64,000 bases of DNA from Pseudomonas laurylsulfatiphila (GTDB taxonomy: Bacteria > Pseudomonadota > Gammaproteobacteria > Pseudomonadales > Pseudomonadaceae): assembly GCF_002934665.1 (NCBI RefSeq), contig NZ_NIRS01000006.1:248001-312000 (forward strand), in the 5' to 3' direction. A model generated the notes under the pieces. It was not told the origin of the DNA and ran no database searches. It was given only the letters and a program-made list of their open reading frames with translations. Of this stretch, positions 45,950-50,651 are shown piece by piece; position 1 is the stretch's first letter, and each line of letters starts with the position of its first letter. The position numbers and the translations under genes were made by a program.

Positions 45950-45965
45950 CTGTATAAGTAGCCAG
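45950..45965. promoter_or_regulatory. LexA (SOS) box upstream of recA
   Basis: CTGTATAAGTAGCCAG fits CTG-N10-CAG. It sits between the recA start and the pncC stop. Confidence 0.88.
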
Positions 45966-45992: not shown

Positions 45993-46499
45993 CTACCCCT
46001 GATTTGAGATTTCTGCCGCGGTATAGCGCAGCAGCCCCTCTAGCGCGGCCTTCACCGTTTGTCGGCGCACCTCGTCGCGGTCACCGGCGAAGTGTTGCAA
46101 CTCGCTGAACACTCGCTCGCCCACGCCCCAGGCCAGCCAAACCGTCCCCACCGGCTTGCTCGGCGAACCACCGTCCGGCCCGGCTACGCCACTGACCGCC
46201 ACGGAAAAATACGCGCGACTTTTCTCCTGCGCGCCCCTGGCCATCGCTTCGACTACCTCGCGACTGACCGCCCCCACCGTGGTGAACAACTCCACAGGAA
46301 CATCCAGTTGCAGGTTCTTCTGCAGATTGGAATAGGTGACATAACCGGCCTCGAACCACGCCGAGCTGCCCGGAATACGGGTGATCGCCTCGGCAATCCC
46401 GCCTCCGGTGCAGGACTCGGCCGTGGAAACGTGGGCATTGAGAATCTGCAATTGCCTGCCAAGGTCAGCGGCGAGCTGGGTAATTACTTTCACGGTCAT
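45993..46499 (-). CDS. pncC: Nicotinamide-nucleotide amidase (CinA C-terminal domain)
   Basis: A 168-residue single-domain CinA-C protein, which deamidates NMN in NAD recycling. The active-site region [16 protein letters not shown] is intact, and [19 protein letters not shown] is a second family signature. In pseudomonads it sits next to recA; on its other side lies the tailocin locus of many P. fluorescens-group strains. Confidence 0.94.
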
Positions 46500-46611
46500 C
46501 TCCTGATGGGGCGGGATGGGTTAACCGTACACCAGCAGACCGCACTTGCAAGCGACAGGCCCGATCAAAATGTAAAGAACCAGAGGCTCTGGAAAAGGCC
46601 TGCCGAGGGAT

Positions 46612-46953
46612 TCAATCTTCCACGTCACTGGATTGAACATGACCGACACCCATGCGCTTGGCCGCCCAACGCTCATACAACCCTAAAACTACGTCTGTCC
46701 CGGCCATCGCCGTTAAACAACCACCCGCACAAGCTGCCCAAATGGAAACATTGGCGGCGTGCAGCAGCATGATGACCGAGGCGCCGCAGATCATGCTGGA
46801 GCCAGACCGCAGGCTCAGGCGCCGGACAAGGGGCCAGCCACGAACACCCTCTTTATCGGCACGCCACATTTCACCGGTAACGCCACCAAGTATTGGCAGG
46901 CTGATGACCAGCCAAAGAGGCATGTCCAGCAACGCATATTGCTCAGCGGTCAT
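46612..46953 (-). CDS. Phage/tailocin-type holin
   Basis: A 113-residue membrane protein from the ATG at 46953, which has a perfect AAGGAGG site. Two or three hydrophobic segments are seen (LWLVISLPILGGVTG; the second begins GSSMICGASVIMLLHAANVS). The charged C terminus ends SSDVED. This matches holins placed first in the R-tailocin cluster of P. fluorescens-group strains between the repressor and the tail genes. Here the tail and lysozyme genes are absent, and pncC follows directly. A promoter overlaid by repressor-like repeats lies upstream. Confidence 0.75.
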   Translation of the reverse strand: MTAEQYALLDMPLWLVISLPILGGVTGEMWRADKEGVRGWPLVRRLSLRSGSSMICGASVIMLLHAANVSIWAACAGGCLTAMAGTDVVLGLYERWAAKRMGVGHVQSSDVED

Positions 46954-47007
46954 TTCATGCCTCCTTGAGTGAACGGTCATTCCGTGTTCTTGAATAGACA
47001 GAAAACA

Positions 47008-47036
47008 AGACTATGCATTTACGCATAGACAGTCAA
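47008..47036 (-). promoter_or_regulatory. Candidate holin promoter
   Basis: On the minus strand a -35 TTGACT (47036 to 47031), a 17-base spacer and a weak -10 TAGTCT (47013 to 47008). The spacer carries one operator-like repeat and a second lies just upstream of the -35. Confidence 0.5.
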
Positions 47037-47050
47037 TGCGCAAACGCATA
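47012..47050. promoter_or_regulatory. Two operator-like repeats at the holin promoter
   Basis: TATGCATTTACGCATA (47012-47027) and AATGCGCAAACGCATA (47035-47050) are related imperfect palindromes 23 bases apart, about two helical turns. A third related motif, read on the minus strand as TATGCAAAAACGCAAC, overlaps the repressor start codon near 47863. They are good candidates for binding sites of the PrtR-like repressor. Confidence 0.6.
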
Positions 47051-47081
47051 AACGAAGACCATCCGATGCTTTCAGCAAACG

Positions 47082-47110
47082 AAAAAAAACCCGCTCAGGA
47101 AGCGGGTTTT
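47082..47110 (-). terminator. Terminator of the PrtR-like repressor gene
   Basis: AAAACCCGCT and AGCGGGTTTT arms with a CAGGA loop on the plus strand; on the minus strand a run of eight T follows. It lies 19 bases past the repressor stop and insulates the holin. Confidence 0.9.
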
Positions 47111-47128
47111 ATCTGAACGCTGAGGGTG

Positions 47129-47863
47129 TTAGCGGGCGTACATGCCCCACCAGAAGACATGTCCGAGGATAACAATCGGCTCCTCCTGGATGTCCTGAAA
47201 GGTGTAATCCTCGTCTGGGTGTTCATCGCGATTAAAGCTGCGCAGGCGTATCCCGGTCGGCAGACGATAAAGCTGCTTCACCCGAAGTTGGCCGTTGTGA
47301 TTGATTGCATAAAGGTCGCCGTCAACGATATCGCCAATGCCGCACTTGCCGGCATTCACGCCGACCGTGGCGCCATCGCGCAGTACTGGCAGCATGCTGT
47401 TGCCCCGCACCGTCACGCATTTCGCCTGATCGAACTGCACACCGTTATGGCGCAGACTCCGCTTTCCAAAGCGCAGGCTAGAGCGCTCGCTTTCCTCGAT
47501 AACGAATCTTCCCGACCCTGCGGCCAACTCAACCTCACGAAGAAAAGGAACCGACACCTCATCGTCATCGATAGGGGTATCGTCGTCCCACAGACTTATA
47601 TCCTTGAGTTCCGAATGCACAGGAGCACGCCCGGCATTGGTGGCGGGCGCGACGTCCGCGCGACCTCGCAACTGGTCGGTGCTCACGGAAAAATAGTCGG
47701 CAATTTTCGAAATGTGCCGATCCGAAGGATCGACGATCTTCCCGCTGAGAATGCGCGAGAGCGTGGATTGAGGCACGCCGGTACGACGGTGAAGCTCCGT
47801 GGGGGAGATCCCGTGCTGATCGAGCAATGCTCTTAATACGGTAGATACGTTGCGTTTTTGCAT
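47129..47863 (-). CDS. PrtR-like CI/LexA-type repressor (S24 peptidase)
   Basis: About 244 residues. An N-terminal helix-turn-helix (GISPTELHRRTGVPQSTLSR) is joined to a self-cleaving S24 peptidase domain. The Ala-Gly cleavage site is in VELAAGSGRF, the catalytic Ser in VRGNSMLPVL and the Lys in LRVKQLYRLP. The C-terminal half (IRLRSFNRDEHPDEDY, GHVFWWG) closely matches PrtR, the pyocin repressor of P. aeruginosa, which is inactivated by RecA after DNA damage. It should release the holin in the SOS response. The start could also be the ATG at 47872, three codons upstream; neither has a strong ribosome site. Confidence 0.85.
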   Translation of the reverse strand: MQKRNVSTVLRALLDQHGISPTELHRRTGVPQSTLSRILSGKIVDPSDRHISKIADYFSVSTDQLRGRADVAPATNAGRAPVHSELKDISLWDDDTPIDDDEVSVPFLREVELAAGSGRFVIEESERSSLRFGKRSLRHNGVQFDQAKCVTVRGNSMLPVLRDGATVGVNAGKCGIGDIVDGDLYAINHNGQLRVKQLYRLPTGIRLRSFNRDEHPDEDYTFQDIQEEPIVILGHVFWWGMYAR

Positions 47864-47906
47864 AACCCGCATAGTGCTTGCTCTACTCGAAGAAGACAAT
47901 GCCGAT

Positions 47907-48071: not shown

Positions 48072-50651
48072 ATGAATAAAGCCGTCTCCGACCTGTCCTC
48101 CCACACACCCATGATGCAGCAGTACTGGCGCCTGAAAAACCAGCACCCGGACCAGCTGATGTTCTACCGCATGGGCGACTTCTACGAGATCTTCTATGAA
48201 GACGCGAAGAAGGCCGCCAAGTTGCTGGACATCACCCTGACCGCCCGCGGGCAGTCGGCGGGGCAGGCGATTCCGATGTGCGGGATTCCTTACCACGCCG
48301 CCGAGGGTTACCTGGCAAAACTGGTGAAGCTTGGCGAGTCGGTGGTGATCTGCGAGCAGGTCGGTGACCCGGCCACCAGCAAAGGACCGGTAGAGCGGCA
48401 GGTGGTGCGCATCATCACGCCGGGGACGGTGAGTGACGAGGCGTTGCTCGACGAGCGTCGGGACAACCTGATCGCTGCCGTTCTGGGTGATGAGCGTCTG
48501 TTCGGCCTGGCGGTGCTGGACATCACCAGTGGCAACTTCAGCGTGCTGGAAATCAAGGGCTGGGAAAACCTGCTGGCGGAGCTGGAACGGGTCAACCCGG
48601 TGGAACTGCTGATCCCGGATGACTGGCCCAAGGACTTGCCGGCGGAAAAGCGCCGCGGTGTACGTCGCCGTGCGCCGTGGGATTTCGAGCGCGATTCGGC
48701 GCTCAAAAGCCTGTGCCAGCAATTCTCGACCCAGGATCTCAAGGGCTTTGGCTGCGAAAACCTGACCCTGGCCATCGGTGCCGCCGGTTGCCTGCTGGCC
48801 TACGCCAAGGAAACCCAGCGCACCGCCCTGCCTCACTTGCGCAGCTTGCGTCATGAACGCCTGGACGACACCGTGGTGCTCGATGGCGCCAGCCGTCGCA
48901 ACCTGGAGCTCGACACCAACCTGGCCGGGGGCCGCGACAACACCCTACAATCAGTGGTGGACCGTTGCCAGACCGCCATGGGCAGCCGCCTGCTGACCCG
49001 CTGGCTGAATCGCCCGTTACGCGATCTGACAGTGCTGTTGGCGCGTCAGACCTCGATCACGTGCCTGCTCGACGGTTACCGCTTCGAAAGACTGCAACCG
49101 CAACTCAAGGAAATCGGCGACATCGAGCGGATTCTTGCGCGGATCGGCCTGCGCAATGCTCGCCCGCGCGACCTCGCCCGCTTGCGTGACGCCCTCGGCG
49201 CACTGCCCGAACTGCAAGTGGCGATGACAGAGCTCGAAGCCCCGCACCTACAGCAACTCGCCAGCATCACCAGTACCTACCCGGAACTGGCGGCACTGCT
49301 GGAGAAGGCCATCATCGACAACCCGCCGGCGGTCATTCGGGATGGCGGCGTACTGAAAACCGGCTACGACAGCGAACTCGACGAACTGCAGTCGCTCAGC
49401 GAAAACGCCGGGCAATTCCTGATCGACCTCGAAGCACGGGAAAAGGCCCGCACCGGCCTGTCCCACCTGAAGGTCGGCTACAACCGCATTCACGGTTACT
49501 TCATCGAGCTGCCAAGCAAGCAGGCGGAGTCGGCACCGGCCGACTATATTCGCCGCCAGACGCTCAAAGGTGCCGAGCGTTTCATTACGCCGGAACTCAA
49601 AGCGTTCGAAGACAAGGCATTGTCAGCCAAGAGCCGCGCCCTGGCGCGCGAGAAGATGCTGTACGAAGCACTGCTCGAAGACCTGATCGCCCAACTGCCG
49701 CCCTTGCAGGACACCGCAGGCGCCCTGGCCGAACTGGACGTCTTGAGCAACCTGGCCGAGCGAGCACTGAACCTCGACCTGAACTGCCCGCGCTTCGTCA
49801 GTGAACCATGCATGCGCATCAGCCAGGGACGCCATCCGGTGGTCGAGCAAGTGCTGACCACGCCGTTCGTGGCCAACGACCTGAGCCTGGACGACAACAC
49901 GCGCATGCTGGTGATCACCGGCCCGAACATGGGCGGTAAATCCACCTACATGCGTCAGACCGCTCTGATTGTGCTGCTGGCGCATATCGGCAGCTTCGTG
50001 CCGGCGGCCAGTTGCGAATTGTCCCTGGTCGACCGCATCTTCACCCGAATCGGTTCCAGCGATGACTTGGCTGGCGGGCGCTCAACCTTCATGGTGGAAA
50101 TGAGCGAAACCGCGAACATTCTGCACAACGCCACCGAGCGCAGCCTGGTGTTGATGGACGAAGTCGGGCGCGGTACCAGCACCTTCGATGGCCTGTCGCT
50201 GGCCTGGGCGGCAGCCGAACGCCTGGCGCATCTGCGTGCCTACACGCTGTTCGCCACCCACTACTTCGAACTGACCGTCCTGCCGGAGGCCCAGCCGCTG
50301 GTGGCCAACGTGCACCTCAATGCCACCGAGCACAATGAACGCATCGTGTTCCTGCACCACGTGCTGCCGGGACCGGCCAGCCAGAGTTATGGCCTGGCCG
50401 TGGCACAGCTGGCAGGCGTACCGACTGAAGTCATTACCCGCGCCCGCGAGCATTTGAGCCGCCTGGAAGACACCGCCCTGCCCCATGAGTCGCCAGCACC
50501 TGCCAAAGGTAAACCGGCGGCTCCACAGCAAAGCGACATGTTCGCCAGTCTGCCGCACCCGGTGCTGGATGACCTGGCCAAGCTCGATCTGGACGACATG
50601 ACGCCACGTCGTGCTCTCGAAATGCTCTATACACTGAAGACACGGATCTAA
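48072..50651 (+). CDS. mutS: DNA mismatch repair protein MutS
   Basis: About 859 residues, the normal length. The mismatch-reading Phe-Glu motif lies in [16 protein letters not shown] near residue 38. The ATPase shows Walker [15 protein letters not shown], Walker [17 protein letters not shown] and the signature [16 protein letters not shown]. The ATG at 48072 gives the family start MNKAVSDL. It is the right border of the usual tailocin site. Confidence 0.97.

Follow-up and report, generated by a model that had tools for sequence, protein, structure and literature searches.

The mutS-cinA interval of Pseudomonas is a tailocin hotspot described by Mavrodi et al. (PMC2647930) and Vacheron et al. 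(PMC7815802), and the P. fluorescens-group tailocins that occupy it are headed by a PrtR-type repressor and a holin. In Pf-5 (prophage 01) and Q8r1-96 (ssh6), this repressor-holin block is described as a highly conserved segment next to a possible recombination hotspot and precedes a tail, an endolysin, and further genes (PMC2647930). A comparable arrangement is described in P. aeruginosa, where the damage-responsive, self-cleaving repressor AlpR controls a host-kept, prophage-derived putative holin of the alpBCDE genes; that system also includes AlpA as antiterminator, other lysis genes, and a putative antiholin (PMC7969949). Pyocin lysis genes of P. aeruginosa also have a role other than pyocin release in explosive lysis, which requires the endolysin Lys (PMC4834629). 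No description of a conserved solo repressor-holin pair at mutS-cinA, or of the leader reported below, was found in the titles and abstract openings of papers listed by searches of one open-access library.

The window analyzed here is a 64,000-nucleotide stretch (G000:C10:248001-312000) of the 6.68 Mb Pseudomonas laurylsulfatiphila genome (G000). Its 1.6 kb mutS-cinA interval is filled by an S24-type repressor and a PF16085 holin, both with intact frames, the remaining frames in the ORF list being overlapping or antisense. The pair has the same place, order, and type of holin and repressor as the PrtR-hol head of the known tailocins but lacks their tail, endolysin, further genes, and leader, and its holin falls in a clade of its own. 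The features are as follows.

48072 to 50651, forward strand: mutS (ORF), which flanks the tailocin hotspot on the left
47871 to 47899, reverse strand: putative repressor promoter, with -35 TTGTCT (47899-47894), a 17-nt spacer, and -10 CACTAT (47876-47871); pattern counted in 97 repressor genes
47129 to 47863, reverse strand: PrtR-like repressor with Cro/CI helix-turn-helix (HTH) and S24 peptidase domains
47086 to 47110, reverse strand: intrinsic terminator 3' of the repressor, a hairpin with T run from the terminator scan
47035 to 47050, reverse strand: predicted operator 1, TATGCGTTTGCGCATT, over the -35 of the holin promoter and conserved in relatives
47012 to 47027, reverse strand: predicted operator 2, TATGCGTAAATGCATA, over the -10 of the holin promoter
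47008 to 47036, reverse strand: putative holin promoter TTGACT-N17-TAGTCT, by eye and comparison
46960 to 46966, reverse strand: holin ribosome binding site AAGGAGG, read from the sequence
46612 to 46953, reverse strand: holin (Hol, PF16085) of 113 amino acids, with its ATG at 46953
46573 to 46596, reverse strand: weak spanin scar, the last ~8 codons of a lost spanin gene, from junction comparison
45993 to 46499, reverse strand: cinA/pncC, right flank, then recA and recX

The ORFs and Pfam matches bore out the first-pass annotation in its report of an intact repressor and holin alone in the interval, and the AAGGAGG site and terminator that it had placed before the holin and after the repressor were both present. 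The terminator scan of the region gave four terminator-like sites, the expectation from shuffled sequence being 2.5, and one such hairpin (46592-46576) falls inside the spanin scar within the 112 bp separating the holin end from cinA. A CTG-N10-CAG site upstream of recA (45950-45965) fits a LexA box. Sheath, tube, baseplate, and fibre genes were absent from the interval; of the repressor and lysis genes of such a locus, the repressor and holin were present, and the interval is too short to hold an endolysin and a spanin as well. In contrast to the Alp system, there was no alpA, alpCDE, or other extra gene between repressor, holin, and cinA, and the single holin lies directly behind the repressed promoter. 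Among working systems, AlpR-AlpBCDE is the closest analogue of the pair, likened by design.

The 244-amino acid repressor matched HTH_3 (8e-11) and Peptidase_S24 (4e-17) in Pfam and the phrog_4 repressor (1e-47); no solved structure matched by sequence at E 0.01. By motif, Ala115-Gly116 is the likely cleavage site, and Ser156 and Lys196 are the predicted catalytic residues. All of them, like the QSTLSRIL stretch of the helix, were unchanged in 97/97 repressor homologues. The HTH and S24 domains with predicted cleavage and catalytic residues place the protein in the PrtR/CI type. S24 repressors generally depend on RecA for self-cleavage, and RecA would likewise be expected to stimulate cleavage here. 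The first-pass annotation had the right frame but opened it at the in-frame ATG at 47872; the start is most likely at 47863, 5' of which stands the promoter-like TTGTCT-N17-CACTAT-N7-ATG. Among the 97 homologues, this -10 reads CACTAT in 78 and CAATAT in 11, none has a Shine-Dalgarno-like motif before the equivalent ATG, and 84 have an in-frame ATG further upstream. As the start codon lies 7 nt past the -10, the repressor mRNA is probably leaderless.

The holin matched Pfam PF16085 (Phage_holin_3_5) over residues 1-112 of 113 (E 2e-44; 150.8 bits against a curated cut-off of 27), which places it in the Hol family, and a modest-confidence structure model (mean pLDDT 66.8) predicted longer helices at 13-35, 40-66, and 71-101. 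The plasmid pLysS is a source of T7 lysozyme. Induction of the related holin PFL_1211 killed an E. coli host with pLysS (PMC2647930), and by analogy the P. laurylsulfatiphila holin would permeabilize the inner membrane. A known anti-phage defence family was rejected, with no PADLOC match for the holin and weak matches alone for the repressor (HTH_VI, 6e-5; capH, 0.001; PDC-M69A, 0.003), and no NCBIfam profile scored above its cut-off.

Both flanks of the interval were found in 148 of 149 Pseudomonas genomes surveyed (the first 200 amino acids of mutS matched in 148/149) and lay on one contig in 140. Eight of these 140 carried a solo repressor and holin in 1.4-1.8 kb (G000, G021, G051, G107, G116, G128, G132, and G137), 78 had an interval of at least 2.9 kb with a holin, and 16 had at least 0.9 kb without a PF16085-type holin. 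The remaining 38/140 had a near-empty site (<0.8 kb without a PF16085-type holin), so members of the genus can do without the pair. Of the 149 genomes sampled, G088 has the most similar cinA (96% identical), and in it repressor and holin are followed in the same interval by sheath, tape measure, baseplate, fibre, endolysin, and Rz-like spanin genes. This locus is, by its gene content, a complete R-tailocin, and the refuting outcome named in the first-pass annotation, that related strains never had tail genes here, did not arise.

A second set comprised named genomes, namely the best 80 out of 228 with a relative of the holin, one per species, in which shares are not frequencies because the ranking was by likeness to the P. 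laurylsulfatiphila holin. In 16 of these best 80 loci, including P. jessenii DSM 17150, P. azerbaijanoccidentalis, P. laurylsulfativorans, and P. kielensis, cinA stands directly 3' of the holin (gap 111-116 bp; repressor-holin gap 159-261 bp). The repressor is 199-211 bp from mutS in 13 of the 16 named solos, and other DNA separates the two in L058, L063, and L069. A PF07486-type cell-wall hydrolase is encoded in this DNA beside the pair, on the mutS side, in L058 and L069; in L069 it belongs to a region that also encodes a terminase, a holin, a spanin, a sheath, and a repressor of 44% identity. An intact solo pair with a phage-type region toward mutS was seen in L048, L143, L144 (G131), and L058:1-3700; the G131 region contained a terminase, holin, spanin, and 44% identical repressor. 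In P. jessenii DSM 17150 (L063:165-2993), non-phage-looking frames, one of them DUF3775, stand where mutS was expected upstream of the repressor.

Nine further loci of the best 80 (L073, L079, L082, L083, L087, L091, L099, L128, and L136) are lysis loci too short to hold a tail: the endolysin follows the holin at 122-2369 bp, and cinA is at most 3.6 kb from the holin; L079 and L082 have space for one or a few more genes. Spanin searches of the nine gave partial matches alone in five and no match in one; the partial matches (L083, L087, L091, L099, and L128) look as if the spanin were next to go. In the tail-less locus L044 of G005, a B_lectin-domain protein (PF01453; 2751-3599), LlpA-like by eye, is encoded between holin and endolysin, and the locus reads as a bacteriocin of the lectin type accompanied by lysis genes of its own.

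Junction comparison revealed how the solo state arose. The last codons of a spanin gene are clear in L080 and weaker but alike in P. laurylsulfatiphila and 13 named loci, whose junctions are nearly identical; no scar was recognizable at the L069 and L071 junctions. Spanin 3' ends were also seen by eye between holin and cinA in G137, G128, and G030. These remnants 3' of the holin show, as far as sequence comparison can, that the solo state originated by deletion of the downstream genes. On a quick holin tree whose long branches are uncertain (L071 above all), P. laurylsulfatiphila and the 16 named solos grouped together as a single clade with support 91 (98 for 16 of its 17 members), nested in a group of 30 (support 96) to which every one of the nine tail-less loci belonged but only two longer loci, L081 and L092. 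The other solos (G137, G107, G128, G116/G132, and G051) branched outside the main clade, and the solo label required six changes on the tree, at least three forced by well-supported branches; these pairs arose separately. Identity to the P. laurylsulfatiphila cinA and holin did not run in parallel (99% versus 90% in L068; 86% versus 92% in L063), a sign of recombination near the locus, so part of the spread may be recombination and not descent. The locus had been annotated as a remnant of an R-tailocin, and its tailocin-type origin held, given the full G088 locus and the spanin scar; that the tail lost in the P. laurylsulfatiphila lineage was R-type found no support, as the nearest holin relatives mostly have lysis genes without a tail. 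The pair is thus a remnant, but neither recent nor strain-specific, with 17 genomes in one holin clade and the named genomes nearest in cinA, such as L068 (99%), also carrying a solo pair.

Gene order and control sites of the solo pair are the same as in longer loci. A simple promoter scan gave no sigma-70 match in the region and called neither the holin nor the repressor promoter, but the equivalent holin promoter was matched in 79 of the best 80 loci out of 228, and a Shine-Dalgarno-like motif stands 5' of the holin gene in 87/97. The exact tandem operator was found in 19/23 solo rows (absent from L071, G116, G132, and G128) and 70/74 others. It occurs at one place in the P. laurylsulfatiphila genome, the holin promoter; in G128, G132, and G137 the pattern also had a few matches outside the locus, and a reversed-pattern control gave zero matches in 13 genomes. 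A single operator 16-mer has one further place, on contig 7, around which no bacteriocin or phage gene was recognized by eye.

The solo pairs differ from the longer loci in a conserved leader, the core of which is common to temperate phages, which accompanies the downstream genes and is absent where the holin alone is left. Among the best 80 of 228 relatives, the leader core lies between holin promoter and holin in 64/64 non-solo loci and 0/16 solos, and its terminator was found in 63/64 (four far downstream) and 0/16, respectively. With the terminator it spans ~260-310 nt, as in L107:4639-4940 and the 63 remaining non-solo loci within L070-L137. Across the genus set, the core was detected anywhere in the genome for 73/78 long holin loci (absent from G014, G045, G086, G131, and G134), 1/8 solos (G137, whose locus keeps a 52-nt scrap), 2/38 near-empty sites, and 0/16 others. 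Ten phage records matched, one being the Q8r1-96 tailocin itself; the core follows a cI repressor in PseuP_224, whereas in Orimi01 an operon of early type, encoding an ERF-type recombinase, comes after it. In temperate Pseudomonas phages, OP795451.1 and PP179326.1 being records with the core, it lies near the repressor and early genes. Lambdoid phages carry nut or put antitermination sites at such a position, and by analogy the leader is possibly a put-like antitermination RNA. It may help RNA polymerase through the operon and would have become useless or a block once the holin alone remained. No Rfam family matched in three loci, two of them with the leader. Only 4/66 predicted pairs had a two-sided compensatory change, little covariation being seen because the sequence hardly varies, and the structure is a prediction save for the clear terminator.

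The first-pass reading that frames and control sites do not look decayed was upheld, with 16/16 solo-clade holin frames intact and the operators conserved; frames were also intact in the solos outside the main clade. The dN/dS of the 16 solo-clade holins was 0.155 (omega = 1 rejected, 2dlnL 300) versus 0.070 for 24 other holins, pointing to weaker or changed constraint in the solo clade, and that of the repressors was 0.041 (16 solo) and 0.044 (others). The holins of P. laurylsulfatiphila and G021 differ by 22 synonymous and eight nonsynonymous changes. In a neutral simulation on the holin tree, using substitutions only and rough scaling, a mean of 2.4/16 frames stayed stop-free (maximum 10), and all 16 in 0/1000 runs. 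Nine holin positions are diagnostic of the solo clade (L13, V37, S52, S53, A58, H65, G77, T86, and V89), all except L13 and V37 within the second and third long helices of the modest-confidence model; S52, S53, H65, G77, and T86 occur in 16/16 clade members and at most 1/81 others. Intact frames, dN/dS far under 1, and diagnostic substitutions staying fixed show at the sequence level that the pair has been maintained by selection as a stand-alone unit.

Lysis partners elsewhere in the solo genomes were variable. An intact endolysin was sought in P. laurylsulfatiphila: the tailocin endolysin query and phrog_181 found the same single shortened frame on contig 8, and PF00959 (T4-type lysozyme) had no match, leaving one endolysin fragment. 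PF07486 (SleB-type) did not match in the contig-8 prophage region, the window, or two other stretches. In the other solos, phrog_181 had a strong match elsewhere in G021, G107, G116, G128, and G132, a partial one in G137, and none in G051. A sheath was found in 6/8 solo genomes, by PF04984 in G000, G021, G116, G132, and G137 and additionally by phrog_23 in G107, and by neither in G051 and G128; each search alone has holes, since PF04984 missed the control G088 and phrog_23 the control G002, and jointly they found both. The sole P. laurylsulfatiphila sheath by both searches lies in a contig-8 prophage that encodes a terminase, a portal, a capsid, and a holin from a different family, with no endolysin recognized. 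A CRISPR Cas5-like frame was seen by eye (L053:18815-19483; contig 8, 121814-122482) near this prophage at ~97-120 kb. Tail genes under the same repressor sites elsewhere in the genome, proposed as a check, were sought through the operator and two sheath families and not found, and a second tailocin under this repressor was rejected, given the single-place tandem operator, the contig-7 16-mer without a bacteriocin gene, and a sole sheath belonging to the prophage.

We consider it probable, with some reserve, that the pair is an exapted, damage-controlled holin switch that outlived a tailocin-type locus and is maintained by selection. By comparison with relatives, the deletion removed everything from the holin end to the last spanin codons, and the leader with its terminator was lost too. 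The repressor would cover the two operators over the -35 and -10 of the holin promoter until DNA damage gives rise to RecA filaments and the repressor cleaves itself at Ala115-Gly116. Transcription would then reach the holin without crossing a leader, and the inner membrane would be permeabilized. The damaged P. laurylsulfatiphila cell would be expected to be depolarized and dead and not burst, because the searches of its genome found a tailocin-type endolysin fragment alone and no T4-type lysozyme; relatives with an endolysin elsewhere might lyse. Vesicle release, one of the roles first proposed, is weakened in the same way: explosive lysis needs Lys (PMC4834629), and both processes are unlikely for the pair alone since both need an endolysin. 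Any benefit may be to kin or against phage. A more specific form, held tentatively, is a minimal one-effector switch for programmed death or phage exclusion, in which a leader-free holin changed mostly in helices 2 and 3 would collapse the inner membrane without bursting the cell, a design that would have been reached several times from tailocin loci.

The series of full loci, tail-less lysis genes often with a broken spanin, solo pairs, and near-empty sites in relatives could also be a series of erosion, in which the pair is a neutral remnant on its way out, the holin being unselected and the repressor kept since its loss would free a harmful holin. The weaker constraint on solo-clade holins fits this, but such a remnant would account for the constraint on the repressor and leave the holin free to decay, at odds with its dN/dS, its 16 intact frames that no simulated run retained, the later fixation of diagnostic substitutions, and the intact solos outside the main clade. 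We therefore regard neutral persistence as unlikely. Alternatively, the holin could serve as lysis helper or timer for another resident element, such as the contig-8 prophage or genes elsewhere in solo genomes. That prophage has terminase, portal, capsid, and sheath genes, most solo genomes of the genus set have a sheath somewhere, no fewer than five of them encode an endolysin of the tailocin type at another site, and L058 and L069 have the hydrolase beside the pair; yet the prophage brings its own holin, the tandem operator has no second place in P. laurylsulfatiphila with the further 16-mer lying beside no recognizable bacteriocin or phage gene, and G051 and G128 have no sheath in either search, which makes a helper role quite improbable.

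Should the promoter be the useful part, raising cinA-recA-recX transcription upon damage with the holin incidental, the short distance to cinA and the weak terminator-like hairpins that alone intervene would fit. The sequence 5' of cinA is, however, conserved in both full and solo loci, as expected of a cinA promoter of its own, and the constraint on the holin protein would be left over, so this seems very improbable. For the exapted holin switch, the solo holin clade with its named fixed substitutions provides a testable set, and a locus occurring in full, tail-less, solo, and near-empty states offers a clean comparison for how leftover lysis genes may gain new jobs.
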